Positions 29,434 through 44,279 of a stretch of DNA of 64,000 nt are shown piece after piece (within the stretch, counting starts at the first letter, position 1; each line of letters starts with the position of its first letter). The notes under the pieces were generated by a model. That model was given only the letters and a program-made list of their open reading frames with translations. It made no database searches and was not told the DNA's origin. Both the position numbers and the translations under genes were made by a program. The DNA is from Lentzea tibetensis. Lineage in GTDB: Bacteria > Actinomycetota > Actinomycetes > Mycobacteriales > Pseudonocardiaceae. Location: NCBI RefSeq assembly GCF_007845675.1, contig NZ_VOBR01000024.1, positions 62,001 through 126,000 on the forward strand. The letters are read 5' to 3'.

Positions 29434-30936
29434 ATGTCGATCAGATCCAAGGCAACTGCCGCGGTCGCAACCGCGGCGGCGGTGACGCTGTTCGCCGGAA
29501 CAGCTTTCGCTGCGGCGCCTGGCGCGCCCGGCGTGGGGGACCCGTACTTCCCGTCTTACGGGAACGGCGGGTACGACGTGTCGCACTACGACATCAGGCT
29601 CAACTACCAGCCGGCGGGCGACAAGCTCTCCGGCACGACGACGATCCTCGCGAAGGCGACCGAGGACATCACGCAGTTCAACCTCGACTTCCGCCTCAAG
29701 GTGAAGTCGATCCGCGTGAACAACGCCGTCGCCTCCTACAGCCAGGCCGACGGCGAGCTGGTCGTCACGCCGCGCGGCGGCCTGCGCAAGGGGCAGGACC
29801 TCACCGTCGTCGTCACGTACGACGACGTGCCGTCCGCGGTGAAGGACCAGAACGGCTTCGCGGCGTGGGAGAAGACGGCGGACGGTGCCATCGGCATCGG
29901 TGAGCCGGAGATCGCCGCCTGGTGGTTCCCGAGCAACGACCACCCGACCGACAAGGCCACGTTCGACGTGTCCGTCGCGGTGCCGGACGGCGTCGAGGTG
30001 CTGTCCAACGGCCGGTTCCTCGGCCAGACCAGGCAGATCAACGGCTGGAGCCGGTGGAACTGGCGCAGCACCAAGCCGCAGGCCACGTACCTGACGTTCG
30101 TCGCGATCGGCCAGTTCGAGATCCGTCAGTCGACGGCGCCGAACGGCCAGCCGGTGGTGAACGCGTACTCCGAGCGCCTCGGCGAGAACGGTGACGCGGC
30201 CAAGGCCAGCATCGAGCGCACGCCCGAGGTCATCGAGTTCCTCGAGCAGAACGTCGGCCCGTACGCGTTCGAGGCGCAGGGCGGCGTCGTGACGCCGGAC
30301 CTCGGCTACGCGCTGGAGAACCAGACGCGCCCGACGTACGACACCGCGTTCTTCCGGCGCGGTGCGAACACCTACGTGGTCGCGCACGAGCTGGGGCACC
30401 AGTGGTTCGGCGACTCCGTGTCGGTGCACCACTGGAGGGACATCTGGCTGAACGAGGGCTTTGCCTCGTACATGGAGTTCCTCTGGTCCGAGCACGTCGG
30501 TGAGGGCACGGCGCAGGAGAACGCCGACTTCACCTACGACTCCTACCCGGCGGACAGCCCGTTCTGGCAGGTCCTGCCCGGCGACCCCGGTGCGGACAAG
30601 GTGTTCGACGGTGCCGTGTACGACCGCGGCGCGCTGACCGTGCACGCGCTGCGCGTCGCCGTCGGTGACGCGAAGTTCTTCGAGATCCTCAAGACGTGGA
30701 CCGCCAAGAAGCGGTACAGCGACGCGACGATCGAGGAGTTCATCGCGCACGCCGAGGAGATCTCCGGTCAGCCGCTGGACGAGCTGTTCAACACGTGGCT
30801 GTTCACCAAGGGCAAGCCCGCCGAGGCTCCCGGCCGCGCGTCGGTCGGTGTCGCGGCGAAGTCCGTGACGGCCGAGCCGAAGGCGCACCAGAAGATCAAG
30901 CTCACGCACGAGCTCCTGGACGCCAACAAGCACTAG
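29434..30936 (+). CDS. Secreted M1-family zinc metallopeptidase, short form
   Basis: A 500-residue protein with a Sec signal peptide (SIRSKATAAVATAAAVTLFA, cleavage near AFA). The N-terminal saddle domain is followed by the thermolysin-like catalytic domain with HELGH (His318, Glu319, His322) and the third zinc ligand Glu341 in WLNEGFASYMEF. The exopeptidase GXMEN position reads GYALENQTRP, with the Glu kept. It is much shorter than eukaryotic or PepN aminopeptidases and lacks their C-terminal helical domain, as is usual for secreted actinobacterial members. An aminopeptidase role is likely. A terminator follows 12 bp downstream. Confidence 0.9.
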   Translation: MSIRSKATAAVATAAAVTLFAGTAFAAAPGAPGVGDPYFPSYGNGGYDVSHYDIRLNYQPAGDKLSGTTTILAKATEDITQFNLDFRLKVKSIRVNNAVASYSQADGELVVTPRGGLRKGQDLTVVVTYDDVPSAVKDQNGFAAWEKTADGAIGIGEPEIAAWWFPSNDHPTDKATFDVSVAVPDGVEVLSNGRFLGQTRQINGWSRWNWRSTKPQATYLTFVAIGQFEIRQSTAPNGQPVVNAYSERLGENGDAAKASIERTPEVIEFLEQNVGPYAFEAQGGVVTPDLGYALENQTRPTYDTAFFRRGANTYVVAHELGHQWFGDSVSVHHWRDIWLNEGFASYMEFLWSEHVGEGTAQENADFTYDSYPADSPFWQVLPGDPGADKVFDGAVYDRGALTVHALRVAVGDAKFFEILKTWTAKKRYSDATIEEFIAHAEEISGQPLDELFNTWLFTKGKPAEAPGRASVGVAAKSVTAEPKAHQKIKLTHELLDANKH

Positions 30937-30948
30937 GCACGCACGAAC

Positions 30949-30978
30949 GCGGGGCCTCGCCTTCGGGCGGGGCCCCGC
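30949..30978. terminator. Bidirectional terminator between M1 peptidase and menF
   Basis: A GC-rich stem GCGGGGCC with GGCCCCGC is extended inward by TCGCC/GGCGG around a TTCG loop. It sits between the convergent stops at 30936 and 30986 and can serve both strands. Confidence 0.75.
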
Positions 30979-30985
30979 TTCGCGT

Positions 30986-32218
30986 TCACAGGCCTTCGAG
31001 CGCCTCGCGCATGGGCAGCATCTTGGCGTGGGCCTCCTGGACCTCGGTGTCCGGATCTGAGTCCGCCACGACGCCGCAACCTGCGAAAAGGCGCGCGGTG
31101 GAGCCCTCGATCTGGGCGCAGCGCAGCGCGATGCCCAGCTCGCCGTCACCGTTGCCGTCGATCCACCCGACCGGCCCCGCGTAGCGGCCCCGGTCCATGC
31201 CCTCCAGCTGGCTGATGAGCATCGTCGCGTCGAGCGTCGGCGTGCCGCCCACGGCCGCCGTGGGGTGCACGGCGGCACCGAGCCGCAGCAGCGACGCGGA
31301 CGACCCGAGCGTGCCGATCACGTCGCTGGACAGGTGCGACACGTTCGGCAGCCGCAGCACGGACGGGCCATCGACGGACATCGTCGTGCAGTACGGCCGC
31401 AGCGTGTCCGCCAGCGACGTCACCGCGTAGTTGTGCTCCTCGAGGTCCTTGTCGGACGACATCAGCGAGTCCGCGAGCTCCTGGTCGGACATGCCGTCGT
31501 GCGGCCACGTCGTGCCGGCCAGCACCCGCGAGTCGACGACCGAGCCGGTGCGCCGCAGCAGCAGCTCCGGCGTGGCACCCACCAGGCCGTCCACCGCGTA
31601 CGTCCAGCATTCCGGGTAGCGCCGCGCCAGCCCGCGCAGCACGAACCGCTGGTCGAGCCGCTTGTCCGTCACCGCGACCAGGTCGTGCGCGAGCACCACC
31701 TTGTCCAGCTCGCCCTGCCGCATCCGCGCGACGGCCTCGCGCACGGCCTCGCGGTACGCGGTCACCGGCAGCTGCCCGTTCGCGTACCGGACGGTCGCCG
31801 GACGCCGCATCGGTGCCACCGCGGGCTCGGCCTCGGACGAGCCGATGGTGGTGACCCAGGTGTCACCGTTGCGCCTGCCGATGACGACCTCGGGCACGAT
31901 CAGCACCGAGTCGCCGGGTTCGTCGGCGAACGCCATGGAGACGAACGCCACCGGACCGCTGCCGGGCACACCCAGCTCGTCCTCGACGTCCAGGTGCTCC
32001 ACGAACTCCCGCCACCAGCGGTCGGCCTGCTCGAAACGATCAGGTCCTCGCACTTCCAGCCGCGCGGCCTCACCCCATCCGACCAGGCCGGATCCGTCCC
32101 GCACCCAGGCCAGCGCGTGGTCCGGGTCGGGCAGCCTGGCGAGCAGGTCCTCGGCGTCGTCGCGCCTCGTGAGGACGCGCAAGCGTTGTCGAGCTCGCGA
32201 CGTGGGTGCTGATGTCAC
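30986..32218 (-). CDS. menF: Isochorismate synthase
   Basis: A 410-residue chorismate-binding enzyme. The C-terminal catalytic half has GELDKVVLAHDLVAVTDKRL, LVGATPELLLRRTGSVVDSR, LAGTTWPHDG, the HP-containing segment GAAVHPTAAVGGTPT and PVGWIDGNGDGELGIALRCA. It converts chorismate to isochorismate. It opens the menaquinone branch, consistent with menD nearby, though isochorismate could also feed a siderophore. GTG start at 32218. It stands alone, convergent with the peptidase gene. Confidence 0.9.
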   Translation of the reverse strand: MTSAPTSRARQRLRVLTRRDDAEDLLARLPDPDHALAWVRDGSGLVGWGEAARLEVRGPDRFEQADRWWREFVEHLDVEDELGVPGSGPVAFVSMAFADEPGDSVLIVPEVVIGRRNGDTWVTTIGSSEAEPAVAPMRRPATVRYANGQLPVTAYREAVREAVARMRQGELDKVVLAHDLVAVTDKRLDQRFVLRGLARRYPECWTYAVDGLVGATPELLLRRTGSVVDSRVLAGTTWPHDGMSDQELADSLMSSDKDLEEHNYAVTSLADTLRPYCTTMSVDGPSVLRLPNVSHLSSDVIGTLGSSASLLRLGAAVHPTAAVGGTPTLDATMLISQLEGMDRGRYAGPVGWIDGNGDGELGIALRCAQIEGSTARLFAGCGVVADSDPDTEVQEAHAKMLPMREALEGL

Positions 32219-32281
32219 GCCCCGAGGGTATGAAGCCGAAGCTGAAGATCGCGCCCTGACCCAGCTCTAGACTTCTCAGTT

Positions 32282-32728
32282 GTGGTGGACGACGCAGTGC
32301 TGAAGCCGCCGGCCGGCGTACGCGTCCGCCGGGTGGTGAGCCGGGTTCTTCTGGTGGTCGGAGGCGTGGTCACGCTGGTCTGCGTGCTGCTACCGATCGC
32401 CTGCTGGCGTGGTGACGTGGCGATCGAGAGCCGGATGGGCTCGGCCGCGGCCGAGGTCGTGTCGGTCTCCTTCAACCGGACGGTAGTGCGGTATGTCACA
32501 CCGGACGGCCGCGTGATCATCCCGGCGCTCGGCGTGCTCTACCCGGAGGGGCTCGAACCCGGACAGCGCGTGAAGGTCGAGTACGACGTGACCAACCCGG
32601 AGCTGACGCGGGTCGCCGGACGCACGGCGTCGTTGTCGTTCTTGCCGGTCAGCACGTTCCTGCTGGCTGTCTGGGTCGTCATAGGACTGGTTGTTACACT
32701 ACTTCGCAGATTCCGCCGCCAGGTGTAA
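32282..32728 (+). CDS. DUF3592-type membrane protein
   Basis: A 148-residue protein with two membrane helices (VVSRVLLVVGGVVTLVCVLL and LPVSTFLLAVWVVIGLVVTL) enclosing an extracytoplasmic beta-rich domain of about 65 residues (RMGSAAAEVVSVSFNRTVVR, then YPEGLEPGQRVKVEYD). This layout is the DUF3592 family, of unknown function. It starts at GTG 32282. Its stop lies 9 bp before paaA, and its last codons contain both arms of an inverted repeat, so it may be part of the paa transcript or carry the paa operator. Confidence 0.75.
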   Translation: MVDDAVLKPPAGVRVRRVVSRVLLVVGGVVTLVCVLLPIACWRGDVAIESRMGSAAAEVVSVSFNRTVVRYVTPDGRVIIPALGVLYPEGLEPGQRVKVEYDVTNPELTRVAGRTASLSFLPVSTFLLAVWVVIGLVVTLLRRFRRQV

Positions 32729-32730
32729 CA
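32692..32730. promoter_or_regulatory. Inverted repeat TGTTACAC-N23-GTGTAACA upstream of paaA
   Basis: Perfect 8-bp arms at 32692-32699 and 32723-32730 are spaced 31 bp centre to centre, about three helical turns. They lie inside the end of the DUF3592 gene and finish 7 bp before the paaA ATG. A repressor bound there could block paa transcription. It does not look like a PaaR consensus I know, and the binding protein is unknown. Confidence 0.4.
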
Positions 32731-32737
32731 TCGAGGC

Positions 32738-33691
32738 ATGGCGGATGAGCTGGATCTCGCGTTCGAGCGCACGGTGCGGTCCGAGGCGCGCATCGAGCCT
32801 CGCGACTGGATGCCCGACGGGTATCGCAACACGCTGATCAGGCAGATCGCCCAGCACGCGCACTCCGAGATCATCGGGATGCAGCCGGAGGGCAACTGGA
32901 TCAGCCGCGCGCCGTCGCTGCGCCGCAAGGCGATCCTGCTGGCGAAGGTGCAGGACGAGGCCGGTCACGGCCTGTACCTGTACTCGGCCACCGAGACGCT
33001 GGGTGCGGACCGCACGGACCTGACGGTGAAGCTCATCGAGGGCAGGCAGAAGTACTCGTCGATCTTCAACTACCCGACGCTGACGTTCGCGGACATGGGC
33101 GTGATCGGCTGGCTCGTCGACGGCGCCGCGATCTGCAACCAGGTGCCGCTCTGCCGCACCTCCTACGGCCCGTACGCGCGTGCCATGATCCGCATCTGCA
33201 AGGAGGAGTCCTTCCACCAGCGGCAGGGCTACGAGCTGCTCATGACGATGATGAGCGGCACGCAGGCGCAGCGGGACATGGTGCAGGACGCGGTGAACCG
33301 CTGGTGGTGGCCGTCGCTGATGATGTTCGGCCCACCGGACGCCGAGTCGTCCAACACCGAGCAGTCGATGGCGTGGCGGATCAAGCGCAACACCAACGAC
33401 GAGCTGCGGCAGAAGTTCGTCGACATGTCCGTGCCGCAGGCCGCGCACCTCGGGGTGACGTTCCCCGACCCCGAGCTGAGGTGGAACGAAGAGCGCGGGC
33501 ACCACGACTTCGGCCAGCCGGACTGGGACGAGTTCTGGCAGGTCGTCAAGGGCAACGGCGTGTGCAACGCGCAGCGCATCGCGCACCGGCGCAAGGCGCA
33601 CGAGGACGGCGCGTGGGTTCGTGAGGCTGCCGAGGCCCACGCTGCTCGTCAGGTCTCAAAGGAAGCCAAGATGATTGGACAGAGCGCGTGA
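32738..33691 (+). CDS. paaA: Phenylacetyl-CoA epoxidase, catalytic subunit
   Basis: A 317-residue ferritin-like di-iron oxygenase subunit. It starts [20 protein letters not shown] and has the family segments [34 protein letters not shown] (EX2H iron ligands) and [17 protein letters not shown] (second EX2H). It inserts oxygen into phenylacetyl-CoA to form the ring 1,2-epoxide, using electrons from PaaE. First gene of the tight paaABCDE operon. Its stop overlaps the paaB GTG. Confidence 0.96.
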
Positions 33692-33972
33692 GCTCTTCGT
33701 GGCCCCTCTGGGAAGTGTTCGTCCGCGGCAAGCGCGGGCTGAACCACGTGCACGTGGGTTCGCTGCACGCACCGGACGCCGAGATGGCGCTGCGCAACGC
33801 GCGTGACGTCTACACGCGGCGCAACGAGGGCGTGTCGATCTGGGTTGTGAAGGCCGACGACATCACCGCTTCGTCGCCGGACGAGAAGGACCCGTTCTTC
33901 GCGCCGTCGGGCGACAAGGTCTACCGGCACCCGACGTTCTACGCGATTCCCGAGGACGTGCCGCACCTATGA
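33688..33972 (+). CDS. paaB: Phenylacetyl-CoA epoxidase, PaaB subunit
   Basis: A 94-residue protein, the usual size for PaaB. It has [20 protein letters not shown] at the N-terminus and [20 protein letters not shown] in the middle. PaaB bridges PaaAC units in the complex and is not catalytic. The GTG start overlaps the paaA stop (GTGA). Confidence 0.95.
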
Positions 33973-34006
33973 GTCGCCCCGACGTACTTCTCCCCGCGGA
34001 GGGGCC

Positions 34007-34891
34007 ATGAGTTTCGACAACGCTTACGAGTCGCTGCTCGGGCACGAGGACGCGCATTGGGCCTTCGGCACCGGCTTCGCCGAGGCGCTGGTCGGCGTCA
34101 ACCGCGAGTTCCCATCCACTGTGGACCGTGCGGACATCGCGGCGTACTGCCTGATGCTCGGTGACGACGCGCTGATCATGGCGCAGCGCCTCGCCGAGTG
34201 GTGCTCGCGCGCCCCTGAGCTCGAGGAGGACATCGCGCTGTCGAACATCGCGCTGGACCTGCTCGGCCAGGCGCGGCTGCTGCTGACCCGCGCGGGCGAG
34301 GTGCTGGAGCGCGACGAGGACTCGCTGGCGTTCCTGCGCGACGAGCGCGAGTTCCGCAACGTGCACCTGGTCGAGATCGACTGCGGTCCCGGTCCTGGCG
34401 GCGACTTCGGCACGACCATCGCGCGCCTGCTGGTGTTCTCGTCGTGGCGGCTGGCGTTGTTCTCCCGGTTGCGCGGCTCCGCCGACCCCGTCTTGGCGGC
34501 GATCGCGGAGAAGGGCCTCAAGGAGCTGGCCTACCACCGCGACCACGCGGCCCAGTGGGCTGTTCGCCTCGGTGACGGCACCGACGAGTCGCACCGGCGC
34601 ATGCAGGCCGGTCTGGAGCGCGTCTGGCCGTTCGTCGACGAGCTGTTCCTCGCGCACCCCGTCGAGGCGAAGCTGTCCGGTGTCGCGGTGCCGTCCGCCG
34701 AACTGCGGTCCGAAGTGGAAGGTGTGCTGGAGGCCGTGTTCTCGGCTTCCGGCTTGACGCGTCCCGCTGACGTCCCGACCGCGCGGGTGGCCGGGATGGC
34801 CGGTCGCGACGGCGTGCACACCGAGGCCATGGGCTTCCTGCTCGCCGAGATGCAGCACCTGCACCGCTCCCTGCCGGGTGCGACGTGGTGA
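34007..34891 (+). CDS. paaC: Phenylacetyl-CoA epoxidase, structural subunit PaaC
   Basis: A 294-residue ferritin-like subunit without a full di-iron site. It has ALIMAQRLAEWCSRAPELEE, NIALDLLGQARLLLTRAGEV and KGLKELAYHRDHAAQWAVRL. It pairs with PaaA to form the catalytic core. The ATG at 34007 is preceded by CGGAGGGGCC, a good ribosome site. A 34-bp gap separates it from paaB, and its end overlaps paaD. Confidence 0.94.
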   Translation: MSFDNAYESLLGHEDAHWAFGTGFAEALVGVNREFPSTVDRADIAAYCLMLGDDALIMAQRLAEWCSRAPELEEDIALSNIALDLLGQARLLLTRAGEVLERDEDSLAFLRDEREFRNVHLVEIDCGPGPGGDFGTTIARLLVFSSWRLALFSRLRGSADPVLAAIAEKGLKELAYHRDHAAQWAVRLGDGTDESHRRMQAGLERVWPFVDELFLAHPVEAKLSGVAVPSAELRSEVEGVLEAVFSASGLTRPADVPTARVAGMAGRDGVHTEAMGFLLAEMQHLHRSLPGATW

Positions 34892-35382
34892 CGACCGCGC
34901 TGGAGATCGCCTCCCGCGTCAGGGACCCGGAGCTGCCGGTGCTGACGCTGGCGGATCTCGGCGTGCTGCGGTCGGTCTCCGAGTCGTCGGACGGCAGCGT
35001 CGTCGTGACCATCACGCCCACGTACACGGGCTGTCCCGCGCTCGACGAGATGGGCGCCGACCTGCGGCGTTCGCTGGTCGCCGCCGGCTACTCGTCGGTC
35101 GAGGTGCGCACGGCGCTGTCGCCGGCGTGGACGACGGACTGGATCACCGACGAGGGCCGTCGCAAGCTGCAGGAGGCGGGCATCGCGCCGCCGTCGAAGC
35201 TGGGCCCGCAGGCCGTCGGCCCGGTGCCGCTGAACCTGACGCCGCCGTCGCGCCGCGTGCTGTGCCCGCGCTGCTCGTCGCCGCGCACCGAGGAGGTGTC
35301 CCGCTTCGGTTCGACCGCCTGCAAGGCGCTGCGCCGCTGCGCGGACTGCCTCGAGCCCTTCGAGCACGTCAAGGAGATCTGA
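34885..35382 (+). CDS. paaD: Phenylacetyl-CoA epoxidase assembly protein PaaD
   Basis: A 165-residue protein of the MIP18/DUF59 type (ASRVRDPELPVLTLADLGVL, then PTYTGCPALDEMGADLRRSL). It ends in a zinc-ribbon-like Cys cluster (LCPRCSSPRTEE and RRCADCLEPFEH). It is thought to help Fe-S assembly in the reductase PaaE. GTG start overlaps the paaC stop. Confidence 0.93.
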   Translation: MVTTALEIASRVRDPELPVLTLADLGVLRSVSESSDGSVVVTITPTYTGCPALDEMGADLRRSLVAAGYSSVEVRTALSPAWTTDWITDEGRRKLQEAGIAPPSKLGPQAVGPVPLNLTPPSRRVLCPRCSSPRTEEVSRFGSTACKALRRCADCLEPFEHVKEI

Positions 35383-36423
35383 GTGTCGCGCCGGGCGGAG
35401 TTCCACAAGCTGACGGTGTCGAAGGTCGACCGGCTGTGCGACGACGCGGTCGCGGTCACCTTCGACGTCCCCACCGGTGTGTCCGAGGACTTCGCGTTCT
35501 CCGCGGGTCAGTACCTGACCCTGCGCAACGGCGACGAGCGCCGCTCGTACTCGATCTGCGCGCCCTCCGGCACCGCGCCGCGCATCGGCGTCCGCCGGGT
35601 CACCGACGGCCTGTTCTCGACGTGGCTGGTCGACCGCCTCGCGCCCGGTGACGTGGTCGAGGTGCTGCCGCCGCTGGGCAAGTTCACCCCGTCCGCCGAG
35701 GGCACCCACCACGGCTTCGTGGTCGCAGGCTCGGGCATCACGCCCGCGCTGTCCATCGCGTCCACCGTGCTCGCCACGGGCGCGCGCGTGACCCTGCTCT
35801 ACGGCAACCGCCGCACCGACACCGTGATGTTCGCCGACGAGCTGGCCGACCTGAAGGACCGCTACCCGTCGACGTTCCAGCTGATCCACGTCCTGTCCCG
35901 CGAGCCGCGCGACGTCGAGCTGTTCTCCGGCAGGCTGGACGGCGCCAAGCTCGAGGCGCTCTTCTCGACGGTCGTGCCGGTCGACGACATCGACCAGTGG
36001 TGGCTGTGCGGTCCGTACGGCCTGGTCACCGAGGCCACGGCGGTGCTGTCCGCGCGCGGCGTGGCTCCTGAGTCCGTGCACCACGAGCTGTTCTACGTCG
36101 ACGAGCCGCCGCCCCCGCCGCGCCGGGTCGAGGAGCGCCTGGAGTCCGCGGCGTCCGTGACGGTCGTGCTGGACGGCAAGTCGACCACCCTCGACCTGCC
36201 GCCGGACGAGCCGATCCTGGACGCGGCCCAGCGCGTGCGCGCCGACCTCCCGTTCGCCTGCAAGGGCGGCGTCTGCGGCACCTGCCGGGCATTGGTGACC
36301 GATGGTTCGGTGGAGATGCGCCGCAACTACGCGTTGGACCCCAGCGAGGTCGAAGCCGGATTCGTGCTCACCTGCCAGGCCGTTCCCACTTCTTCGGAAG
36401 TGACCGTCGACTTCGACGCGTGA
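35383..36423 (+). CDS. paaE: Phenylacetyl-CoA epoxidase, reductase subunit
   Basis: A 346-residue flavin/iron-sulfur reductase. The FAD domain has RRSYSICAPSG, the NAD(P) domain has VVAGSGITPALSIASTVLAT, and a C-terminal plant-type 2Fe-2S ferredoxin domain has ACKGGVCGTCRALV with a final Cys in LTCQAVP. It passes NADPH electrons to the PaaA di-iron centre. It starts directly after the paaD stop (GTG 35383) and ends the operon. Genes for later Paa steps are not in the window. Confidence 0.95.
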   Translation: MSRRAEFHKLTVSKVDRLCDDAVAVTFDVPTGVSEDFAFSAGQYLTLRNGDERRSYSICAPSGTAPRIGVRRVTDGLFSTWLVDRLAPGDVVEVLPPLGKFTPSAEGTHHGFVVAGSGITPALSIASTVLATGARVTLLYGNRRTDTVMFADELADLKDRYPSTFQLIHVLSREPRDVELFSGRLDGAKLEALFSTVVPVDDIDQWWLCGPYGLVTEATAVLSARGVAPESVHHELFYVDEPPPPPRRVEERLESAASVTVVLDGKSTTLDLPPDEPILDAAQRVRADLPFACKGGVCGTCRALVTDGSVEMRRNYALDPSEVEAGFVLTCQAVPTSSEVTVDFDA

Positions 36424-36430
36424 ATAAAGA

Positions 36431-36459
36431 TTGACGTACCTCGCGGTGTGGGTAATTAT
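36431..36459 (+). promoter_or_regulatory. Promoter for the small-peptide/tRNA-like unit
   Basis: TTGACG (36431-36436) and AATTAT (36454-36459), 17 bp apart, make a near-consensus housekeeping promoter, unusual in such GC-rich DNA. It starts 7 bp after the paaE stop, so the unit downstream is independently transcribed. Start would be near 36466, about 23 bases before the small ORF. Confidence 0.65.
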
Positions 36460-36488
36460 GTGTGCACACACCGAGCAGAGGAGCGGTC

Positions 36489-36593
36489 ATGACGAACAAG
36501 CAGATTGCGGGGATGCGGCAACTCGCCGCCATTGCCGCGCGCTTGCTCGCCTGGCGCCTGCAGCTGCTGCTGCACCGCGGCTCCCCGCTATGA
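36489..36593 (+). CDS. 34-residue cationic amphipathic peptide (unrecognised)
   Basis: ATG 36489 follows GAGGAG (36479-36484) at ideal spacing and opens a 34-codon frame, with MTNKQIAGMRQLAAIAARLL at the N-terminus and ending HRGSPL. The centre is a hydrophobic, Ala/Leu-rich amphipathic helix with scattered Arg. It holds six Ala and one Trp, the two amino acids matching the anticodons of the tRNA-like genes downstream; this may be coincidence. A strong promoter precedes it and a terminator starts 21 bp after its stop. It could be a leader peptide for attenuation, a small membrane-active peptide, or a peptide substrate. No homologue is recognised. Confidence 0.5.
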   Translation: MTNKQIAGMRQLAAIAARLLAWRLQLLLHRGSPL

Positions 36594-36613
36594 CGTAGGA
36601 CGTCAAGCCTGGG

Positions 36614-36651
36614 AGCCGCCCATCGGGAAACCGATCAGGGCGGCTTTCTTT
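36614..36651 (+). terminator. Rho-independent terminator between small ORF and tRNA-like genes
   Basis: Stem AGCCGCCC with GGGCGGCT is extended by ATCGG/CCGAT around a GAAA-type loop, followed by a T-rich run TTTCTTTGTTT. It can end the small-ORF transcript or act as an attenuator for the tRNA-like pair. Confidence 0.8.
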
Positions 36652-36676
36652 GTTTGGTGTCCCCATTTAATTCCTT

Positions 36677-36745
36677 ACCGGTGAGCTTCGGAAGCGGAAC
36701 TGCCTCCAAAACAGTTTCCCGAGGGTTCGACTCCTTCCGCCGGTG
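36677..36745 (+). tRNA. tRNA-like RNA, Trp-type (anticodon CCA), shortened D-arm
   Basis: Sixty-nine nucleotides fold as: acceptor ACCGGTG (36677-36683) with CGCCGGT (36738-36744), one G-U pair; a 15-nt D region AGCTTCGGAAGCGGA forming GCTT-CGG-AAGC; anticodon arm ACTGC-CTCCAAA-ACAGT with one C-A mismatch and anticodon CCA; 5-nt variable loop; T-arm GAGGG-TTCGACT-CCTTC; discriminator G. A1-U72 pair, CCA anticodon and G73 agree with bacterial tRNA-Trp identity. The D region is several bases shorter than normal, but its loop keeps the GG that contacts the T-loop. CCA is not encoded. A -10-like TTTAAT sits 5 bp upstream. It shares its exact layout with the next gene. Confidence 0.6.
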
Positions 36746-36757
36746 CGCAGTGCAATT

Positions 36758-36826
36758 GGGGGACGCGCCGGCGCGCAGACGATCCTTGCAAGATCGTCGG
36801 GGAGGGTTCGACACCCTCGTCTTCCA
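36758..36826 (+). tRNA. tRNA-like RNA, Ala-type (anticodon UGC), shortened D-arm
   Basis: Also exactly 69 nucleotides: acceptor GGGGGAC (36758-36764) with GTCTTCC (36819-36825), including G3-U70, the classic alanine identity pair; a 15-nt D region GCGCCGGCGCGCAGA (stem GCGC/GCGC, loop CGGC); perfect anticodon arm CGATC-CTTGCAA-GATCG with anticodon UGC; variable TCGGG; T-arm GAGGG-TTCGACA-CCCTC; discriminator A. Only the D-arm is abnormal. It lies 12 bp after the Trp-type RNA and 17 bp before a terminator hairpin. The matching segment lengths of two RNAs with different sequences argue for selection rather than decay. Confidence 0.6.
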
Positions 36827-36843
36827 CTTTGTGACCGAGGCGA

Positions 36844-36868
36844 GCGGGCTCGTGCCGCACGAGCCCGC
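36844..36868. terminator. Hairpin terminator after the tRNA-like pair
   Basis: A perfect 11-bp stem GCGGGCTCGTG with CACGAGCCCGC and a 3-nt loop. It lies 17 bp after the Ala-type RNA and 22 bp before the stop of the convergent phosphodiesterase gene, so it can serve both strands. Confidence 0.75.
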
Positions 36869-36890
36869 CCCCGTCATAACCCCTGTCCGG

Positions 36891-38360
36891 TCAGCGCTTC
36901 GTGAACTGAGGCGCGTCGACCGCCCAGTACCAGTCGTTGCCCGCCTCGGAGAGCCGCCACGAGACGACCGCGCTGCGCGCACCCGCGGGCACCGCGACGT
37001 CGAGCGAGATCTGCTTGGCGAGCCCGTCCGCGGTCAACGTCTGCACGACCTTCTCCGGCCCGCCGTCGAACGACACCGACACGGTGGCGCGCTGCGAGCC
37101 GTCCTGCCGGTAGTGCGACACGTACTCGAGGCGCGCGGTGGTCGCGCCCGAGACGTCGAAGCCGGGAGAGACCAGCGTCGAGTCGAACCGGCCCGATGAC
37201 GACGGCGAGCCCTTGTCGTCCCACTCGTCCGGGTCCGCCACCGCGAACACGCCGCGCGCCCGCACGTTCGCCTCGCGCTCTTGCGCCGGCGCCGTCCGCG
37301 TCCAGAAGTCGTCGGTGGTGAACGACCAGCCCTGCCACTCGGCCACCCCGGCGGGCATCGCCGTGGCGTTGCGCACCGACCAGCCCGCCGGGCCCTGGTG
37401 CGTCCAGCCGAGCACCGACGACGGCACGCCGGTCTCGTCCTGCCGCGGCTTGAGCGTCACGCCGTCGAACGCGTCGCGCGGCGCGGAGCCGATCGGGTAG
37501 CCGTCGAGCGCGGCCGGCACGCCGAGGTGGCCCAGTGCCGTCGCGGCGACGTCCACGAGCTTCGGTGCGACGGGTGGACGCGCGGCGCCGGTCGACACCA
37601 CGAACGTCATCCGCTCCTCCGGCGTGTCACCGCCGTGCCCGCCCGCGGCGGTGTGGCCGTGGTCGGTGGTCACCACGATCAGCCAGTTCTCGTCGGCGTA
37701 GGACGGCCGCGACTCGACCGCGCGCAGCACCCGGCCGATGTGCGCGTCGCTCGTGCGCATCGCCTGGTCGTACTGCGGCGAGTTCGCGCCGTGCGAGTGA
37801 CCCGCGATGTCGATCTCGCCGAAGTAGACGAACGACGCGTCGGCCGAGCCGGTGCGCAGCTGCTGCTCGGCGTCGGCGGCGATCTTCGCGTCGGACGGGC
37901 CGTAGCCCGCGGTGTCGCCGTCGAGCACGTACTTGCGGTCCTGGCCGGTCCGCAGGATCCGGTCGCCGATCGGCTTCCAGTCCACCGCCGCGTACGTGGC
38001 GAGCGAGGGCCGCGCCTTCTCGGCGCGTTCCAGCCAGCTCGGGTAGGACGCCAGCGCGTTGCCGCTGAACGAGTTGTCCTTGACCTTGTGCTTGTCCGGC
38101 CAGACGCCGGTGAGGATCGTCGACCAGCCGGGGCCGCTCGACGTGGTCGCCATGCCCGAGCCGTAGAGCGCGCTCGGGGCGGCGTAACCGCGTAGCGCGA
38201 GCGCGTGCAGGTTCGGCGTGTTCGCGGCCATCAGCTTGTCGTAGCGCGCGCCGTCGAGTCCGATCACCAGGACCTTCGGCGGCGGGGCGGGAGCGGCCGC
38301 GACAGGCGGCGTGACCAGCAGGGGCACCATCAGCACCAGCAGGGTGAGTGCTCTTGTCAT
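36891..38360 (-). CDS. Secreted type I phosphodiesterase / nucleotide pyrophosphatase family protein
   Basis: A 489-residue protein with an N-terminal signal (TRALTLLVLMVPLLVTPPVA, cleavage near AAA). The alkaline-phosphatase-fold domain has the first metal site KVLVIGLDGARYDKL, the nucleophile region TTSSGPGWSTILTGVWPDKH, FGEIDIAGHSHGANSPQYD and TTDHGHTAAGGHGG, all typical of PF01663 enzymes. The last ~150 residues form a beta-rich domain of unknown role (SPGFDVSGATTARLEYVSHY). The substrate is an extracellular phosphodiester, not determinable here. ATG 38360 is chosen because the signal peptide begins there; an upstream TTG is possible. Confidence 0.85.
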   Translation of the reverse strand: MTRALTLLVLMVPLLVTPPVAAAPAPPPKVLVIGLDGARYDKLMAANTPNLHALALRGYAAPSALYGSGMATTSSGPGWSTILTGVWPDKHKVKDNSFSGNALASYPSWLERAEKARPSLATYAAVDWKPIGDRILRTGQDRKYVLDGDTAGYGPSDAKIAADAEQQLRTGSADASFVYFGEIDIAGHSHGANSPQYDQAMRTSDAHIGRVLRAVESRPSYADENWLIVVTTDHGHTAAGGHGGDTPEERMTFVVSTGAARPPVAPKLVDVAATALGHLGVPAALDGYPIGSAPRDAFDGVTLKPRQDETGVPSSVLGWTHQGPAGWSVRNATAMPAGVAEWQGWSFTTDDFWTRTAPAQEREANVRARGVFAVADPDEWDDKGSPSSSGRFDSTLVSPGFDVSGATTARLEYVSHYRQDGSQRATVSVSFDGGPEKVVQTLTADGLAKQISLDVAVPAGARSAVVSWRLSEAGNDWYWAVDAPQFTKR

Positions 38361-38510
38361 GACAAGCAGATTTCTTGGTAGCAAAGGTTTTCGTCAATGA
38401 ACCAGGAGGGTGTTCATCGACCGTTCAAACTTGTCAGTACATGTTGTTCGCCGCCGCGACGTTGTGGGCTCGCCGGTGGATCGGGCCGAGATCTGGCACG
38501 ATCGCCAGCC

Positions 38511-39107
38511 ATGGGGGTTGTCGGACGTTCGGTGCTCGGCGGGTTGTTCTACGGGTCTGCGTGCGCCGCACTGGTCGCGGTCGTGGCGGTGGTGCTCGGC
38601 GAGAACAACTCCCCGGTGTGGCTGCTGGCGCTGAGCATCCCGGTGTTCGGGGTGATCTTCGGCGGCGTTCCCGGTCTGGTCGTCGGCACCGTCGTGGGCC
38701 TGGTCCGCCGGGCCGCGCAGCCGAGACCGCTCCCGTACGCCGCACCCCAGCCCGTCGACATGTGGTCCGTGCTGGTCGACCGCTGCGCCGAGTCCACGCG
38801 CCGGGTCGCGGCAGCCGTCACGACGGTCCCCGAGTCGCTCGCGCGTGACTGGATGGAGCGCATCGCCCAGGACCTGAAGAAGGAGCTGGACGACGTCCGC
38901 GGCATCGCGCAGCTGGGCCGCGCGCTGGGAGCCGTGGACGCGCAGCACCCCGTCTACCAGCGACTCGAGGCCGCGGTGCGCGACTTCACCGCGTTCGAGA
39001 ACCAGGTCGCGACGGTCGCGCTCAAGATGTTCGACCACCCCGAGCTGGACCAGGTGCGCACCGACCTGGAGTTCCTGGAGCAGCAGCTGCCGCAGCTAAG
39101 CGGCTGA
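38511..39107 (+). CDS. Small membrane protein with cytoplasmic helical domain
   Basis: A 198-residue protein. Two membrane helices (VLGGLFYGSACAALVAVVAV and VWLLALSIPVFGVIFGGVPG onward) are followed by a helical soluble domain with DWMERIAQDLKKELDDVRGI and LDQVRTDLEFLEQQLPQ, likely coiled coil. No family is recognised. Its last 12 bp overlap the convergent IMPase-family gene. Confidence 0.65.
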   Translation: MGVVGRSVLGGLFYGSACAALVAVVAVVLGENNSPVWLLALSIPVFGVIFGGVPGLVVGTVVGLVRRAAQPRPLPYAAPQPVDMWSVLVDRCAESTRRVAAAVTTVPESLARDWMERIAQDLKKELDDVRGIAQLGRALGAVDAQHPVYQRLEAAVRDFTAFENQVATVALKMFDHPELDQVRTDLEFLEQQLPQLSG

Positions 39108-39926
39108 CAGCGCGGACTGCCACCAGCCCAGCACCTCGTCCGCCGCGTCCGGCGCCGCGACCAGCAGACCGTCGAGCGGCAGCTGGGCACCCGCGCCCCG
39201 CCGGTCCAGCACGACCGCGCCGGACTCGACCGCCAGCGACACCGCGCCCGCCACGTCCCACTCGTGGTACCCGTGCAGCACGGCAGCGGCGACGTGGCCC
39301 AGCGCGACCTGCGCGACGGCCAGCGCCTTCGAGCCGAGCACGCGCACACCGGTTCCCGCGACGGCGGCCGTGGTGATGAACGTCCCCATGCCCGGCCACG
39401 GCCCGGAGCGGGTCATCTCGGTGCACACGACGAGGCTGTCGCCCTGCCGTTCGGTCAGCTTCACGGGCGTGCCGTTGGCGCGCATGCCCCGGCCGCGCGC
39501 GGCGGCGTAGATCTGGGCGCGGTACGGGTCCGCGACGACGCCGACGACCGGGCCCCAGCGGTCGATCAGCGCCAGGCTGTAGGCGCACCACGGCATGCCC
39601 GCCGTGTAGTTGGCCGTGCCGTCGACGGGGTCGACGACCCAGCGGAACTCGGAGTCGCCGGGCACGTCGAGGTCGGTGTTCTCGCAGTACACGGGGATGT
39701 CGGGGAACTCGGCGGTCAGCACCCGCCGGGTGTGTCTCTCGAGGGTGTGGTCGGTGTCGGTCACCCAGTCGAAGGGCGACTCGTCCTCGGTGGGGCGGAC
39801 ACCGCGACCGGCCGTTGCCATGATGACGTCGGAGGCGTCGTTGGCGAGTCGGCCGGCCACCTCGAGCGCGATCGACACCAAGCCTGGATCGACTGGGTGC
39901 GCTGGCCGGGACGACAAGACGGTCAT
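39096..39926 (-). CDS. Inositol monophosphatase-family phosphatase
   Basis: A 276-residue member of the Li-sensitive Mg-dependent phosphatase family. Motif 1 is WVVDPVDGTANYTAGMP, preceded by the metal ligand region near FDWVTDTDHTLE and a Glu in VYCENTDLD. Motif 2 is YHEWDVAGAVSLAVESGAVV. Members hydrolyse inositol-1-phosphate, histidinol phosphate, FBP or PAP; which one is unclear. Actinomycetes need IMPase for inositol lipids, which fits the neighbouring mannosyltransferase-like gene, but this is inference. Confidence 0.85.
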   Translation of the reverse strand: MTVLSSRPAHPVDPGLVSIALEVAGRLANDASDVIMATAGRGVRPTEDESPFDWVTDTDHTLERHTRRVLTAEFPDIPVYCENTDLDVPGDSEFRWVVDPVDGTANYTAGMPWCAYSLALIDRWGPVVGVVADPYRAQIYAAARGRGMRANGTPVKLTERQGDSLVVCTEMTRSGPWPGMGTFITTAAVAGTGVRVLGSKALAVAQVALGHVAAAVLHGYHEWDVAGAVSLAVESGAVVLDRRGAGAQLPLDGLLVAAPDAADEVLGWWQSALSAA

Positions 39927-40071
39927 GCCGACCTAGTTTCACCGCACCGGGTGACCGTGACACGACTACGAGATGACGCTCTGGCGATCTCCTGGTCACG
40001 ACGGGTGGTGTTCAAAACGCGTTCTTCACGCGGTCACGTGGTGGTGTCCTTCGGCGTGCACCGTCTGCGGT

Positions 40072-41163
40072 GTGCGCGTCGCGATCGTGACCGAGAGCTT
40101 CCTGCCCCAGGTGAACGGGGTGACCAACTCGGTGCTCCGCGTTCTGGAGCACCTGAAGAGACTCGGCTACCAGGCGCTGGTGATCGCGCCAGGAGCCGGT
40201 GAGGACACCCACGAGGGCACGCCGGTGGTCAGAGTTCCGGCGGTCGACCTCCCGAGAGTGACGAGCCTGCCGGTCGGCGTGCCGACGCGGAAGGTGCTGA
40301 AGGCGCTGGCCGACTTCCGGCCGGACGTCGTGCACCTCGCCTCGCCGTTCGTGCTGGGTGCGCGCGGGTTGTCCGCGGCGCGCAAGCTCGGGCTGCCGAC
40401 CGTCGCGGTGTACCAGACCGACGTCGCCGGGTTCGCGGGCAACTACGGCCTCGGGCTCACCGCGCGCGCCGCGTGGCGCTGGACGAGACGTCTCCACACG
40501 CTGGCCGACCGGACCCTCGCCCCGTCGACCTGGGCCGTCGAGGCGCTGCGCAAGCACGGTGTGCCGCGCGTGCACCGGTGGGCGCGCGGTGTGGACACCG
40601 AGCTGTTCCACCCGTCCCGGCGCGATGCGGGCGACTCCGGTGAGCTCGTCGTCGGCTACGTCGGCAGGCTCGCGCCGGAGAAGCAGGTCTCGCGGCTCAC
40701 CGAGCTCGCGGACGTGCCGGGTGTGAAGCTGCGGATCGTCGGTGACGGACCGGACCTGCCGATGCTGCGCCAGCAGCTGCCGAACGCCGAGTTCCTCGGG
40801 TTCCGCAAGGGCGAGGAGCTCGCCGAGGCCTACGCGTCGCTCGACGTGTTCGTCCACACCGGACCGCACGAGACGTTCTGCCAGGCCGTCCAGGAAGCGC
40901 TCGCCTCGGGCGTGCCGGTGCTCGCGCCGGACGCGGGCGGTCCGCGCGACCTCGTCCGGCACGGCCGCACCGGGTTCCTGTTCGGCGACCGGATCACGTT
41001 GCGCGAAGGCGTGGAACGGCTGCGGGACCCGTTGCTGCGCAAGCAGTTCGGCCTCGCCGCCCGGCGGTCCGTCGCGGGCCGGACGTGGCCGAGGATCTGC
41101 GACGAGCTGATGGGGCACTACGCCGAGCTCGTCGACGTTCCCGCGGAGCATCGGGCTGCATGA
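40072..41163 (+). CDS. mgtA: GT4 glycosyltransferase, MgtA-like (GDP-mannose alpha-mannosyltransferase)
   Basis: A 363-residue GT-B enzyme beginning [20 protein letters not shown], typical of the PimB/MgtA group. The C-terminal donor domain has [17 protein letters not shown] and the GT4 signature [20 protein letters not shown]. In mycobacteria MgtA (Rv0557), beside menG, adds mannose to a glucuronosyl-diacylglycerol lipid anchor; here too the gene is three genes from menJ and close to menG, so orthology is likely. GTG 40072 is set by the protein N-terminus; its Shine-Dalgarno is weak. Its stop overlaps the next glycosyltransferase start (ATGA). Confidence 0.75.
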
Positions 41164-42257
41164 GAATCGTCCAGCTCGCCAACTTCTACGGCCCGCGTTC
41201 GGGTGGTCTGCGCACCGCGCTGCACCACCTCGGAGCCGGGTACGTCGCCGCGGGGCACGACGTGGTGCTCGTCGTGCCCGGTGCCGCGCGTGCCGACGAG
41301 GTGCTGCCCAGCGGCGTCCGCCGGATCACGCTGCCCGCCGTCAAGATCCCCGGCACCGGCGGCTACCGGGTCGTGGACCCGTGGCGCGTCAAGACGTTGC
41401 TGGAGCGGCACCGGCCGGACCGGCTCGAGGTGTCCGACCGGCTGACGCTGCGCGGAATGGGCCACTGGGCGCGGGAACGCGGCATCCCCGGCGTGGTGAT
41501 CTCGCACGAACGGCTCGACCGGCTGCTGTCGTTCGTCATGCCACCGGCGCCCGCCCGGCACGGCGCGGACTGGGCCAACGCCCGCATGGCCGCCTCGTAC
41601 GACACGGTCGTGTGCACGACGTCGTTCGCGCGCGAGGAGTTCGACCGGATCGGCGTGCGCAACGTCGCGCAGGTGCCGCTCGGGGTGGACCTGCGCACGT
41701 TCACGCCGTTGAACCACGATCGCGAACTGCGCTCGACGTTGTTGCAGGGCAAGGAATCACTTTTGGTCCACTGTGGACGTCTGTCGCCGGAGAAGCACGT
41801 CGAGCGCTCGGTGGACACGCTGGCGTCGCTGCACTCGTCCGGTGTGTCCGCGCGGCTGGTGATCGCGGGTGACGGGCCGCGGCGGGCTGCTCTGGAGAAG
41901 CGGGCCGTGGGTCTGCCGGTGACGTTCCTCGGCTTCCTCAAGTCGCGGACCGAGGTGGCGTCGCTGCTCGCGTCGGCCGACGTGTCGCTCGCGCCGGGCC
42001 CGCACGAGACGTTCGGACTCGCCGCACTGGAGGCGCTCGCGAGCGGCACACCGGTCGTGGTGTCCGAGTCGTCCGCTTTGAAGGAGATCGTCCGCCCGGC
42101 CTGCGGGGCCGCGGTCGCCGACCACGCGCCCGCGTTCGCGACGGCCGTGTCGGACCTGCTGGGCAGGAGCAGCAGGGAGGCCGCGCGGGCGCGCGCGGAG
42201 GAGTACCCGTGGGAGGCGGCGGTGGACGGGATGCTGGCCGTTTTGCGCGTCACCTAG
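41160..42257 (+). CDS. GT4 family glycosyltransferase
   Basis: A 365-residue GT-B enzyme. The acceptor domain starts [20 protein letters not shown], and the donor domain has [20 protein letters not shown] and [20 protein letters not shown]. It is translationally coupled to the MgtA-like gene by a 4-bp overlap, so the two may act in sequence on one glycolipid. Donor and acceptor cannot be assigned. menG follows after 9 bp. Confidence 0.85.
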
Positions 42258-42266
42258 CATTCGGGC

Positions 42267-42968
42267 ATGTCCCGAGCAGGTCTTGACAAGAACCCGCGCG
42301 AGGTCGCCTCGATGTTCGACGGCGTGGCCAAGGGCTACGACCGCACGAACTCGGTCATGACCCTCGGGTTCGACCGGCGCTGGCGGGAGTGGAGCAGGCG
42401 CGTGCTCGACGCCAGGCCCGGCGAGAAGGTGCTCGACCTCGCCGCGGGCACCGCGGTGTCGACGGTCGAGTACGCCGAGTCCGGCGCCTGGTGCGTCGCT
42501 GCCGACTTCTCGCTCGGCATGCTGCGCGGCGGCGCTCACCGCGCTGTGCCCAAAGTCGCAGCGGACGCCCTCCGCCTGCCGTTCCGCGACGGCGTCTTCG
42601 ACGCGGCCACCGTGTCCTTCGGCCTGCGCAACTTCAACGACACCGTGGCCGCGCTGCGGGAGATGGCGCGGGTCGTCCGCCCCGGCGGCAGGCTCGTGAT
42701 CTGCGAGGTGTCGACCCCGGTCTTCAGGCCGTTCCGCTTCGTCTACATGCGCTACCTGCTGCGGCTGCTGCCGTTCATCGGCAGGTTCGTGTCGTCGAAC
42801 CCGGAGGCCTACGAGTACCTGGCCGAGTCCATGCGCGCGTGGCCGGACCAGCGCACCCTCGGCGAGCTCATCTCGGAGGCAGGCTGGGAAGACGTGGCCT
42901 GGTTCAACCTGACCGGTGGCATGGTCGCCCTGCACCGAGCGACCAAACCCTCAGCGAGCGCCATCTAG
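42267..42968 (+). CDS. menG: Demethylmenaquinone methyltransferase
   Basis: A 233-residue class I SAM methyltransferase of the UbiE/MenG type. The N-terminal [20 protein letters not shown] and the SAM loop [12 protein letters not shown] are diagnostic, followed by [20 protein letters not shown] and [13 protein letters not shown]. It methylates the naphthoquinone ring in the last step of menaquinone synthesis. Ubiquinone is not made by actinomycetes, so MenG is preferred over UbiE. It lies in line with mgtA and ahead of menJ. Confidence 0.94.
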
Positions 42969-43013
42969 ACTCGTCCCCGAATACTTTGTGAACTGATGCA
43001 CAAGGAGTCGGGG

Positions 43014-44279
43014 ATGAGCAGGCGCGCAGCCAACGAGGACGCCGAGGTCATTGTCGTCGGCGCCGGACCCGCGGGTTCGACGGCGGCCACCTACCTGGCG
43101 CGCGCGGGCCTGGACGTGTTGCTGCTGGAGAAGAGCACGTTCCCGCGCGAGAAGGTGTGCGGCGACGGCCTGACCCCGCGCGGCGTGAAGCAGCTCATCG
43201 ACCTGGGCGTCGACACCCGCGAAGAGGCGGGCTGGCTGCACAACAAGGGCCTGCGCGTGGTCGGCGGCGGCGTCACCCTCGAGCTGGACTGGCCGGACCT
43301 GGCGACGTTCCCGAACTACGGCGTCGTCCGCCCCCGCCAGGACTTCGACTCCCTGCTCGCCGACACCGCGGTCGCCGCGGGCGCCCGCCTGCAGGAGAAC
43401 ACCACGGTGACGAAGGCCGTGGTCGAGAACGGCCGCGTCGTGGGCGTCGAGGCGAAGGTCGGCCCCGACAAGGAGCTGCGCACCTACCGCGCCCCGATCA
43501 TCGTGGGCTGCGACGGCGTCTCCGCACGCCTGGCCCTGTCCGTCGGCCTGCAGAAGGACGACGCCAAGCCCATGGGCGTAGCGGTCCGCCGCTACTACGC
43601 GTCGCCGCGCACCAAGGACGACTACCTCGAGTCGCACCTCGAGCTGTGGGGCAACGACGGCAACCTGCTGCCCGGCTACGGCTGGATCTTCGGCATGGGC
43701 GACGGCAGCGTGAACGTCGGCCTCGGCATCCTCAGCACCTCCAAGGCCTACGGCACCACGGACTACCGGGCACTCCTCAGGAGCTGGCTCGACAACACGC
43801 CCGAGGAGTGGGGCTTCCGCGAGGAGAACGCGACCAGCCGCATCGGCGGCGCCGCGCTCCCCATGGGCCTCAACCGCAAGCCGCACTACCGCAACGGGCT
43901 GGTGCTGGTCGGCGACGCGGGCGGCATGGTCAACCCGTTCAACGGCGAGGGCATCGGCTACGCCATGGAGTCCGCCAAGATCGCGGCGGAGAGCATCGTG
44001 CAGGCCATGGCGCGCACCGGTTACAACCGCGAGCAGGCGCTGCACGGGTACCCGGTGCGGATCGAGCAGGCGCTGGGCAGCTACTACCGGCTCGGCAACG
44101 TCTTCTCGAAGCTCATCGGCAACCCCACGATCATGCGCACCGCCACCAAGTACGGCATGCCGCGCAAGACCCTGATGAAGCTGGTGCTCAAGCTCCTCGC
44201 GGGTCTCTACGACCCGAAGGACGGCGACTCGATGGACCGCATCATCACGGCGGCGACGAAGCTGGCACCGAGCGCCTGA
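43014..44279 (+). CDS. menJ: Menaquinone side-chain reductase (geranylgeranyl reductase family)
   Basis: A 421-residue flavoprotein. FAD-binding VIVVGAGPAGSTAATYLARA opens the protein, EKVCGDGLTPRGVKQLIDLG is the family signature, and GDAGGMVNPFNGEGIGYAME is the second flavin motif. In mycobacteria MenJ (Rv0561c) saturates the beta-isoprene unit of menaquinone-9, and it sits next to menG there as well. ATG 43014 is preferred over 42996 because AAGGAG (43002-43007) lies at the right distance. A terminator follows. Confidence 0.88.
   Translation: MSRRAANEDAEVIVVGAGPAGSTAATYLARAGLDVLLLEKSTFPREKVCGDGLTPRGVKQLIDLGVDTREEAGWLHNKGLRVVGGGVTLELDWPDLATFPNYGVVRPRQDFDSLLADTAVAAGARLQENTTVTKAVVENGRVVGVEAKVGPDKELRTYRAPIIVGCDGVSARLALSVGLQKDDAKPMGVAVRRYYASPRTKDDYLESHLELWGNDGNLLPGYGWIFGMGDGSVNVGLGILSTSKAYGTTDYRALLRSWLDNTPEEWGFREENATSRIGGAALPMGLNRKPHYRNGLVLVGDAGGMVNPFNGEGIGYAMESAKIAAESIVQAMARTGYNREQALHGYPVRIEQALGSYYRLGNVFSKLIGNPTIMRTATKYGMPRKTLMKLVLKLLAGLYDPKDGDSMDRIITAATKLAPSA

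Follow-up and report, generated by a model that had tools for sequence, protein, structure and literature searches.

Several leader-peptide attenuators have been described in Streptomyces lividans, including trpL-trpE, leuL-leuA, alaL-alaS, trpL2-trpS and thrL-thrS (PMC8079986). As the available part of that work presents them, they combine a short leader, translated and rich in the codons concerned, with competing hairpins and control by ribosome stalling. The same features recur before the tRNA arrays considered here, where stalling would exert the control; but each S. lividans leader serves a single amino acid or the branched-chain set, and the genes that it governs encode proteins, whereas here the downstream genes encode tRNAs and a leader may hold up to all the amino acids of its array. 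The uORF attenuator of whiB7/wblC (PMC7157823, PMC11550727) is also actinobacterial, also joins a leader ORF to a terminator and has a similar promoter motif, and tRNA genes are among those activated by WblC, but the accessible portions of these two papers describe no leader matched to tRNA content. The tRNA array units of mycobacteria, plasmids and phages (PMC5966550) are likewise dense sets of supernumerary tRNAs divergent from those of the host; they contain by definition at least 20 tRNAs, whereas most arrays here are smaller, and the available text of that paper contains none of the strings 'attenuat', 'leader' or 'promoter'. Finally, phage tRNAs have been proposed, in the available part of the source, to resist host anticodon nucleases (PMC10264068). 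The arrays here may similarly hold divergent spares that replace cleaved tRNAs, but they are chromosomal, controlled by an attenuator and seemingly tested by codon, and nuclease resistance is a proposal made for the phage side. A full-text literature search, in which most papers were judged by titles and abstract openings and few subscription papers were covered, yielded no description that we recognised of leader-peptide control of tRNA arrays or of leaders matched to tRNA sets. To our knowledge, tRNA genes are not usually considered to be controlled by how their own codons are decoded. The attenuator, the tRNA array and the WblC-like promoter are each of a known kind, and their combination and the rule that matches leader to array appear to be new.

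The window, that is, the whole stretch of 64,000 nucleotides of Lentzea tibetensis DNA that was analysed, contains on its + strand a locus that we regard, with a probability of about 0.65, as belonging, in small and probably shrunken form, to a family of backup tRNA operons that are induced by stalling and in which the leader tests its own codons. Its attenuator (36489-36655) comprises a leader ORF, a hairpin over the stop codon, and an antiterminator and a terminator helix that exclude each other. The leader ORF (36489..36593, +; 34 codons, MTNKQIAGMRQLAAIAARLLAWRLQLLLHRGSPL) has an AGAGGAG ribosome-binding site just 5' of it and a homologue at all 18 Lentzea loci examined. The 5' arm of the antiterminator, GCGGCTCCC (36577..36585, +), lies within the last leader codons, is conserved in alignment A1, and pairs over 9 bp with 36611-36619 in the fold of a truncated transcript. 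The latter segment is the 3' arm, GGGAGCCGC (36611..36619, +), recognised in the sequence, the alignment and the same fold, and it overlaps the 5' arm of the terminator. The leader stop codon is enclosed by the hairpin TGACGT-AGG-ACGTCA (36591..36605, +), which forms in the computed fold, and the intrinsic terminator, AGCCGCCCATCGG-GAAA-CCGATCAGGGCGGCT with a T-rich tail (36613..36655, +), is supported by folding, alignment A1 and covariance model R1. Folding of 36560-36660 gives a z of -3.82, and the window attenuator scores 84.4 bits against R1.

In the covariation alignment, which holds 31 aligned copies out of 37 prepared, 89.9% of the cells of the stop-codon hairpin and antiterminator are paired, with 27 two-sided changes against 9.2 after shuffling. 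All of these changes fall in the stop-codon hairpin, at 4 of its 7 pairs, and the antiterminator arms vary on one side only. The terminator 5' arm has the consensus GGGAGCC, and its alternative partner, GGCTCCC, lies within the last leader codons, for which reason 75 leaders end in SPP. A helix of at least 7 bp between leader end and 3' arm is found in 52 of 76 representatives and in 213 of 3,800 shuffled leader ends. Helix length was used as the measure because at least 5 paired bases, a proof of the antiterminator that was tried and abandoned, occur not only at 74 of the 76 loci but also in 1,120 of 1,520 shuffles. The locus family thus has what is expected of ribosome-mediated attenuation: a leader ORF with a ribosome-binding site positioned at the control hairpins, and exclusive helices supported by covariation or helix length. 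The ribosome-binding site, the leader ORF, a hairpin over or near the stop and a terminator stand 5' of the array at 18 of 18 Lentzea loci. The same layout is seen at 19 of 20 family-wide loci and, by a separate parse, at the twentieth (L101), with L088 and L094 divergent; in all, 150 of 151 distinct attenuators yielded a leader ORF.

Downstream of the attenuator lie a mini tRNA-Trp (CCA; 36677..36745, +), supported by sequence, Rfam score, a DNA search of the genus and covariation, and a mini tRNA-Ala (UGC; 36758..36826, +), supported by sequence, ARAGORN and the same DNA search. The preliminary description had divided both RNAs into segments of 7, 15, 17, 5, 17, 7 and 1 nt, and this division is found in each; also present are the A1-U72 pair, G73 and CCA that it read in the first RNA and the G3-U70 and UGC that it read in the second. 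By the usual identity rules, A1-U72 with CCA and G73 marks a Trp-type tRNA, and G3-U70 with UGC an Ala-type one. Both D-arms consist of a 4-bp stem and a 3-4-nt loop that keeps the GG pointed out earlier, invariant over 20 distinct Trp-type copies. Within the window, ARAGORN calls the Ala gene and not the Trp gene. The latter scores 25.8 bits against the Rfam tRNA model RF00005, below the gathering cut-off of 29 that many normal-length array tRNAs at other loci pass. The best Rfam match of the Ala gene is a sub-threshold one to the Tymovirus tRNA-like element (27.9 bits, cut-off 40), followed here by its tRNA-Sec score of 18.3 bits (gathering cut-off 47). At gathering level, the Rfam scan of the window lists a tRNA-Leu as its sole match and no T-box riboswitch. 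Single-sequence folding gives cloverleaf-like structures, with a z of -2.65 for the Ala gene and of only -1.08 for the Trp gene, which is therefore weak on its own; chance folding of the pair is ruled out by the conservation and covariation given below. The regions fetched around the genome's other tRNA loci contain 47 ARAGORN tRNAs, including Trp-cca, Ala-tgc and Asn-gtt, so the window pair is supernumerary. The array follows what we take, from ORFs named by eye, to be a paa-type operon. A further ARAGORN call in the window, a tRNA-Trp at 49522-49592 (-), finds no support in Rfam and is probably due to chance. The terminator that had been placed after the pair is doubtful: the GC-strong hairpin there (36844..36868, +), recognised in the sequence and a possible 3' end, lacks a T-run, and the clear terminator with a T-run is the upstream one, at 36613-36655.

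The DNA search covered 25 genus genomes, own genome included, and among the matches listed the Trp-like gene is present in 24 of them and the Ala-like gene in 21; one genome (G020) has neither tRNA and retains a single attenuator. For the Trp type, 20 distinct copies were compared (the window's and 19 of the 28 listed). Of their cells, 97.1% are paired, and two-sided changes occur at 13 of 21 pairs, two of them in the D-arm; the 34 two-sided cells compare with a shuffled mean of 11.0 and were reached by none of 500 shuffles. Cloverleaf pairing of the Trp type is under selection, as expected of a functional elongator tRNA. The view of the small D-arms as parts of structured, conserved RNAs with tRNA identity bases is upheld by this conservation and these compensatory changes, and neither the decayed stems (checked for the Trp type) nor the normal D-arms (checked in the genus genomes) that would have spoken against it were found in relatives. 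The geometry that the two RNAs share is not special to them, since a mini D-arm is typical of array tRNAs for Trp, Ala and Met generally; in the other isotypes the anticodon mostly lies at positions 32-37. The Met representative, a mini tRNA (CAT) with a GC-rich, initiator-tRNA-like anticodon stem, is seen in 18 distinct copies (L101, L200, L223 and others).

Among 560 distinct array tRNAs, 533 have 7 acceptor pairs and 513 carry the canonical majority discriminator, the reference being the majority among the canonical tRNAs of two genomes compared. Position 33 is mostly U; among the array tRNAs for Val it is C in 12 of 25, and among those for Leu in 17 of 79, which could impair decoding. In genome G187, 17 of 25 array tRNAs have a canonical counterpart among the fetched loci, with identities of 53-79% and anticodon arms that have from 6 to 17 of 17 bases in common. 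The Trp and Glu anticodon arms of this array are near-canonical (16 and 17 of 17 bases), so for these two, in this one genome, evasion of cleavage is unsupported. As judged from their sequences, the array tRNAs have preserved acceptor stems and discriminators with the remainder rewritten, and they look divergent yet competent for translation.

Most relatives within the genus have additional tRNAs between the Trp-like and the Ala-like gene, the fullest Lentzea arrays reading Trp-Gly-Leu-Leu-Ala-Ile-Val (G003, G009, G018, G021); set beside these, the window array is reduced. In the two relatives whose flanking ORFs were examined, the array presumably lies near suf-type genes, named by eye. Mini Trp and mini Ala genes also occur in larger arrays of other Pseudonocardiaceae genera. 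A family-wide DNA search of 249 genomes was made with one Lentzea array as the query, and 20 loci from it were examined; the 246 genomes with matches are not a count of arrays, because many low-scoring rows resemble ordinary tRNA-Val and tRNA-Ile genes. Array size has a median of 3 called tRNAs. Set against the definition of an array unit (at least 20 tRNAs and at least 2 per kb; PMC5966550), the window with its 2 tRNAs falls short, and the largest relatives (L091, L190, L200) reach 22-25. The idea of an array for hydrophobic amino acids, drawn from the W, G, L, A, I and V of Lentzea, was abandoned after larger arrays turned up. A gene for a TROVE-domain (Ro60-like) protein lies within two arrays (L091, 5826-7436; L094, 4172-5782), and the mini Ala tRNA comes after it in both. 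As a rule such a linkage was rejected, since TROVE occurs in 39 of the 74 listed attenuator genomes that were searched but within the array, among the coordinates listed, in these two only; it is kept as a lead.

At an E-value of 1e-5, model R1 finds the element in 152 of 391 genomes of the family, belonging to 16 of 46 genera. In a wider sample of 298 genomes of the order and 296 of the phylum, searched with stricter filters that lose weak matches, R1 gave a few matches outside the family, all weak, in 8 genomes and in G712; these are taken as chance because ARAGORN finds a tRNA at none of the nine loci. The exact attenuator core is present in 29 named records, from Amycolatopsis, Saccharothrix, Kibdelosporangium, Actinocrispum, Allokutzneria, Actinophytocola, Pseudonocardia, Lentzea and one Rhodococcus rhodnii. 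The record with the last title (L294, JOAA01000007.1) corresponds to G114, which the genome search places in Pseudonocardiaceae, and the title may be wrong. A search with nhmmer of 283 sequences gave 272 attenuators, which come down to 151 distinct ones when an 80-nt context is compared. Among these, 144 are followed on the same strand by at least one tRNA, the first within 600 nt. The fair count of this linkage comes from the representatives fetched by attenuator alone, because other loci were partly fetched through tRNA matches: tRNAs lie directly downstream on the same strand in 102 of 109. The seven exceptions are one interrupted tRNA-like gene, two attenuators before an HNH-like ORF, two weak matches and two without tRNA (L195, L282). 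In the interrupted case (L215), a tRNA gene directly 3' of the attenuator is apparently split by an insert in the anticodon region and is not called by ARAGORN; at L269 and L281, what we take by eye to be an HNH-endonuclease-like ORF replaces the tRNAs. The genome of the window itself carries a second attenuator (C13:76387-76607; L347, L389), whose leader, MAGISTREPRCAHRDFTLTIAGSPP, lacks Asn and is followed by one tRNA-like gene with an att anticodon.

The principal finding concerns the leader and the array behind it. The leader MKSKLECQSSKLELSLELGRLLV precedes an array Glu-Leu-Leu-Gln-Ser-Lys-Cys (L072), MMHTSNAEARHTAEAVVCASMACCLRWHHLPGSPP precedes Trp-Arg-Glu-His-Met-Cys (L220), MTQSRTQELLLLLLLLSCADSPP precedes Leu-Leu (L086), and the leader before the L091 array holds all 20 amino acids. 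Leaders were trimmed of the start Met and the last five residues; 141 of 151 loci were kept, ten being left out for a missing leader or array, a weak ribosome-binding site or a length outside 12-60, and clustering at 45% identity gave 78 clusters. The fraction of residues that correspond to array isotypes has a mean z of 0.885 over the 141 loci and 0.843 over the 78 clusters, against a null of 0 (s.d. 0.041 and 0.051, respectively), and neither value was reached in 10,000 permutations. Over the 78 clusters, the residue that matches an array tRNA occurs in 95.5% of cases, where 67.9% would be expected; this measure is helped by the longer leaders that accompany larger arrays, so that the stratified residue-fraction test is to be relied upon. 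When loci are stratified by the size of the array and the length of the leader, the null mean becomes 0.13, and the observed value is again attained in none of 10,000 permutations. The excess holds for arrays of one or two isotypes (41 loci; 0 of 10,000) and of a single isotype (15 loci; 1 of 10,000). Permutation leaves some shared ancestry, the main guard against which is a count over 34 independent pairs of homologous leaders with differing arrays: of 73 contrasts, 32 agree, 8 disagree and 33 tie (p 0.00018). In one leader family of genus g21, three loci with Cys in the array have RRCC or RRRC in the leader, and five without it have RRRR, the Cys of these leaders standing nearer the end, in a structurally constrained stretch.

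At the level of codons the match is modest (strictly cognate codons 0.543 against 0.480 expected, s.d. 0.014, 0 of 10,000; 78 clusters), so the amino acid or its charging may be sensed rather than the isoacceptor. This excess is carried by Gln, Lys, Arg and Leu, is weak for Ser, Glu and Val, and is absent for Gly, Ala, Pro and Thr. By amino acid, residue enrichment is nil for Asn and hardly any for Thr, and the two loci that carry the anticodon att (L051, L052) both have Asn-free leaders. The window's own match is partial: its leader has one Trp and six Ala codons, together with eight Leu codons for which the array has no tRNA. Enrichment of the leader in codons of the downstream function, as in other attenuators of this kind, is thus found across the family and only in part in the window alone.

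A probable promoter (36423..36458, +) consists, as read from the sequence, of an A-rich AATAAAG (36423-36429), a -35 TTGACG (36431-36436) and a -10 TAATTA (36453-36458) at a spacing of 16. The same arrangement of a TTG-type -35 and an A-rich box is found at 74 of 78 representative loci, with the -35 mostly about 55-64 nt before the leader start. In these, A occupies positions -8 to -6 in 62, 76 and 84% and A or T occupies -5 in 83%; the -35 was fixed by the search pattern and the A-rich box was not. The box matches the register of the WblC motif, described in the available part of PMC7157823 as GAAAWY three bases before the -35. Measured against the WblC features (box 3 nt before a -35 TKGMNN, -10 TANNNT, spacing 16-19), the window misses the last motif base and the exact -10. 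The arrays are probably under a promoter of WhiB7/WblC type.

We infer the following direction of the switch, together with its induction by stalling. A stress-type promoter would produce a transcript of the short leader ORF and then the terminator. A ribosome that reaches the leader stop would cover the 5' arm of the antiterminator, the terminator would form and the tRNA genes would stay off; a ribosome stalled earlier, at a codon short of charged tRNA, would let the antiterminator form and the array be transcribed. Because the leader is rich in codons cognate to the array tRNAs, the operon would test its own products. The divergent array tRNAs, if charged and used by the ribosome, would then restore decoding once the normal tRNAs no longer serve, for which tRNA-cleaving toxins are the most plausible cause and other translation stress the alternative. 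Candidate natural triggers are tRNA cleavage, a synthetase block, an antibiotic and starvation; loss of tRNA function fits best, because cleavage of the old tRNAs could be countered by replacements that differ from them. At about even odds, the operon is a self-auditing kit of spare tRNAs, in which the leader serves as a translated checklist, failure of any one tRNA induces divergent replacements, and the whole acts as a chromosomal sensor of tRNA integrity and as immunity against tRNA-cleaving toxins or phage-triggered nucleases.

Other explanations share parts of this evidence. As described for the whiB7/wblC uORF, the leader could report any slowed translation, as under ribosome-targeting antibiotics, and its residue content would then be incidental; such a general translation-stress operon would agree with the WblC-like promoter box, with the direct activation of six tRNA genes by WblC in S. 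coelicolor (PMC7157823) and with attenuation as the mode of the whiB7/wblC uORFs (PMC11550727), both as given in the available parts of these papers. Incidental content does not predict the leader-array match, however, and we hold this reading to be unlikely, although it leads the alternatives. A response to amino-acid starvation, in which poor charging with several amino acids is sensed by the leader and the array boosts tRNA supply, is slightly less probable again. In its favour, leader and array correspond far better by amino acid than by exact codon, and it has parallels, in the available parts of the sources, in synthetase genes under single-amino-acid leaders in S. lividans (PMC8079986) and in the reported responsiveness of whiB7/wblC to amino-acid starvation (PMC11550727). 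Yet an extra tRNA does not supply the missing amino acid, the arrays cover up to most isotypes, and reading of the arrays examined, which was not systematic, brought no biosynthetic gene to our attention.

A tRNA cluster of mobile or phage origin that survives as a neutral relic would account for the members lost from the window array, and the mycobacterial tRNA arrays have been argued, in the available text, to spread horizontally and to be unlike host tRNAs (PMC5966550). Such a relic is made very improbable by the compensatory changes in the stems, by the retention of the Trp gene in nearly all genus genomes among the matches listed, by the co-conserved attenuator, and by searches in which 36400-36900 matched nothing in phage and plasmid collections and the exact attenuator core was found in no viral contig. 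Least credible of all is the proposal of the preliminary description that the two RNAs are dedicated aminoacyl donors for enzymes outside the ribosome, such as peptide ligases or cell-wall transferases. Odd D-arms with identity bases kept would suit it, but homologous arrays combine various isotypes, covering at the upper end most of the code, and their anticodons, acceptor stems and discriminators are ordinary; the same two tRNAs stand in relatives behind a leader ORF enriched in cognate codons; and inspection by eye of the ORF list for 30000-44000 recognised neither kind of partner enzyme. The suggestion made alongside it, that the RNAs are sensors, survives in part, but the sensor is most likely the leader and attenuator upstream, absent from that description.

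Read as a stall-induced backup operon, the locus appears to be a tRNA operon that gauges, codon by codon, the need for its own products, and would be a ready-made sensor for the loss of individual tRNAs. The correspondence between leader and array predicts the content of an array from a short peptide, and the reverse. It also suggests a purpose for some of the divergent tRNA arrays of bacteria, and WhiB7-type stress may in this way be connected to tRNA supply in antibiotic-producing actinomycetes.
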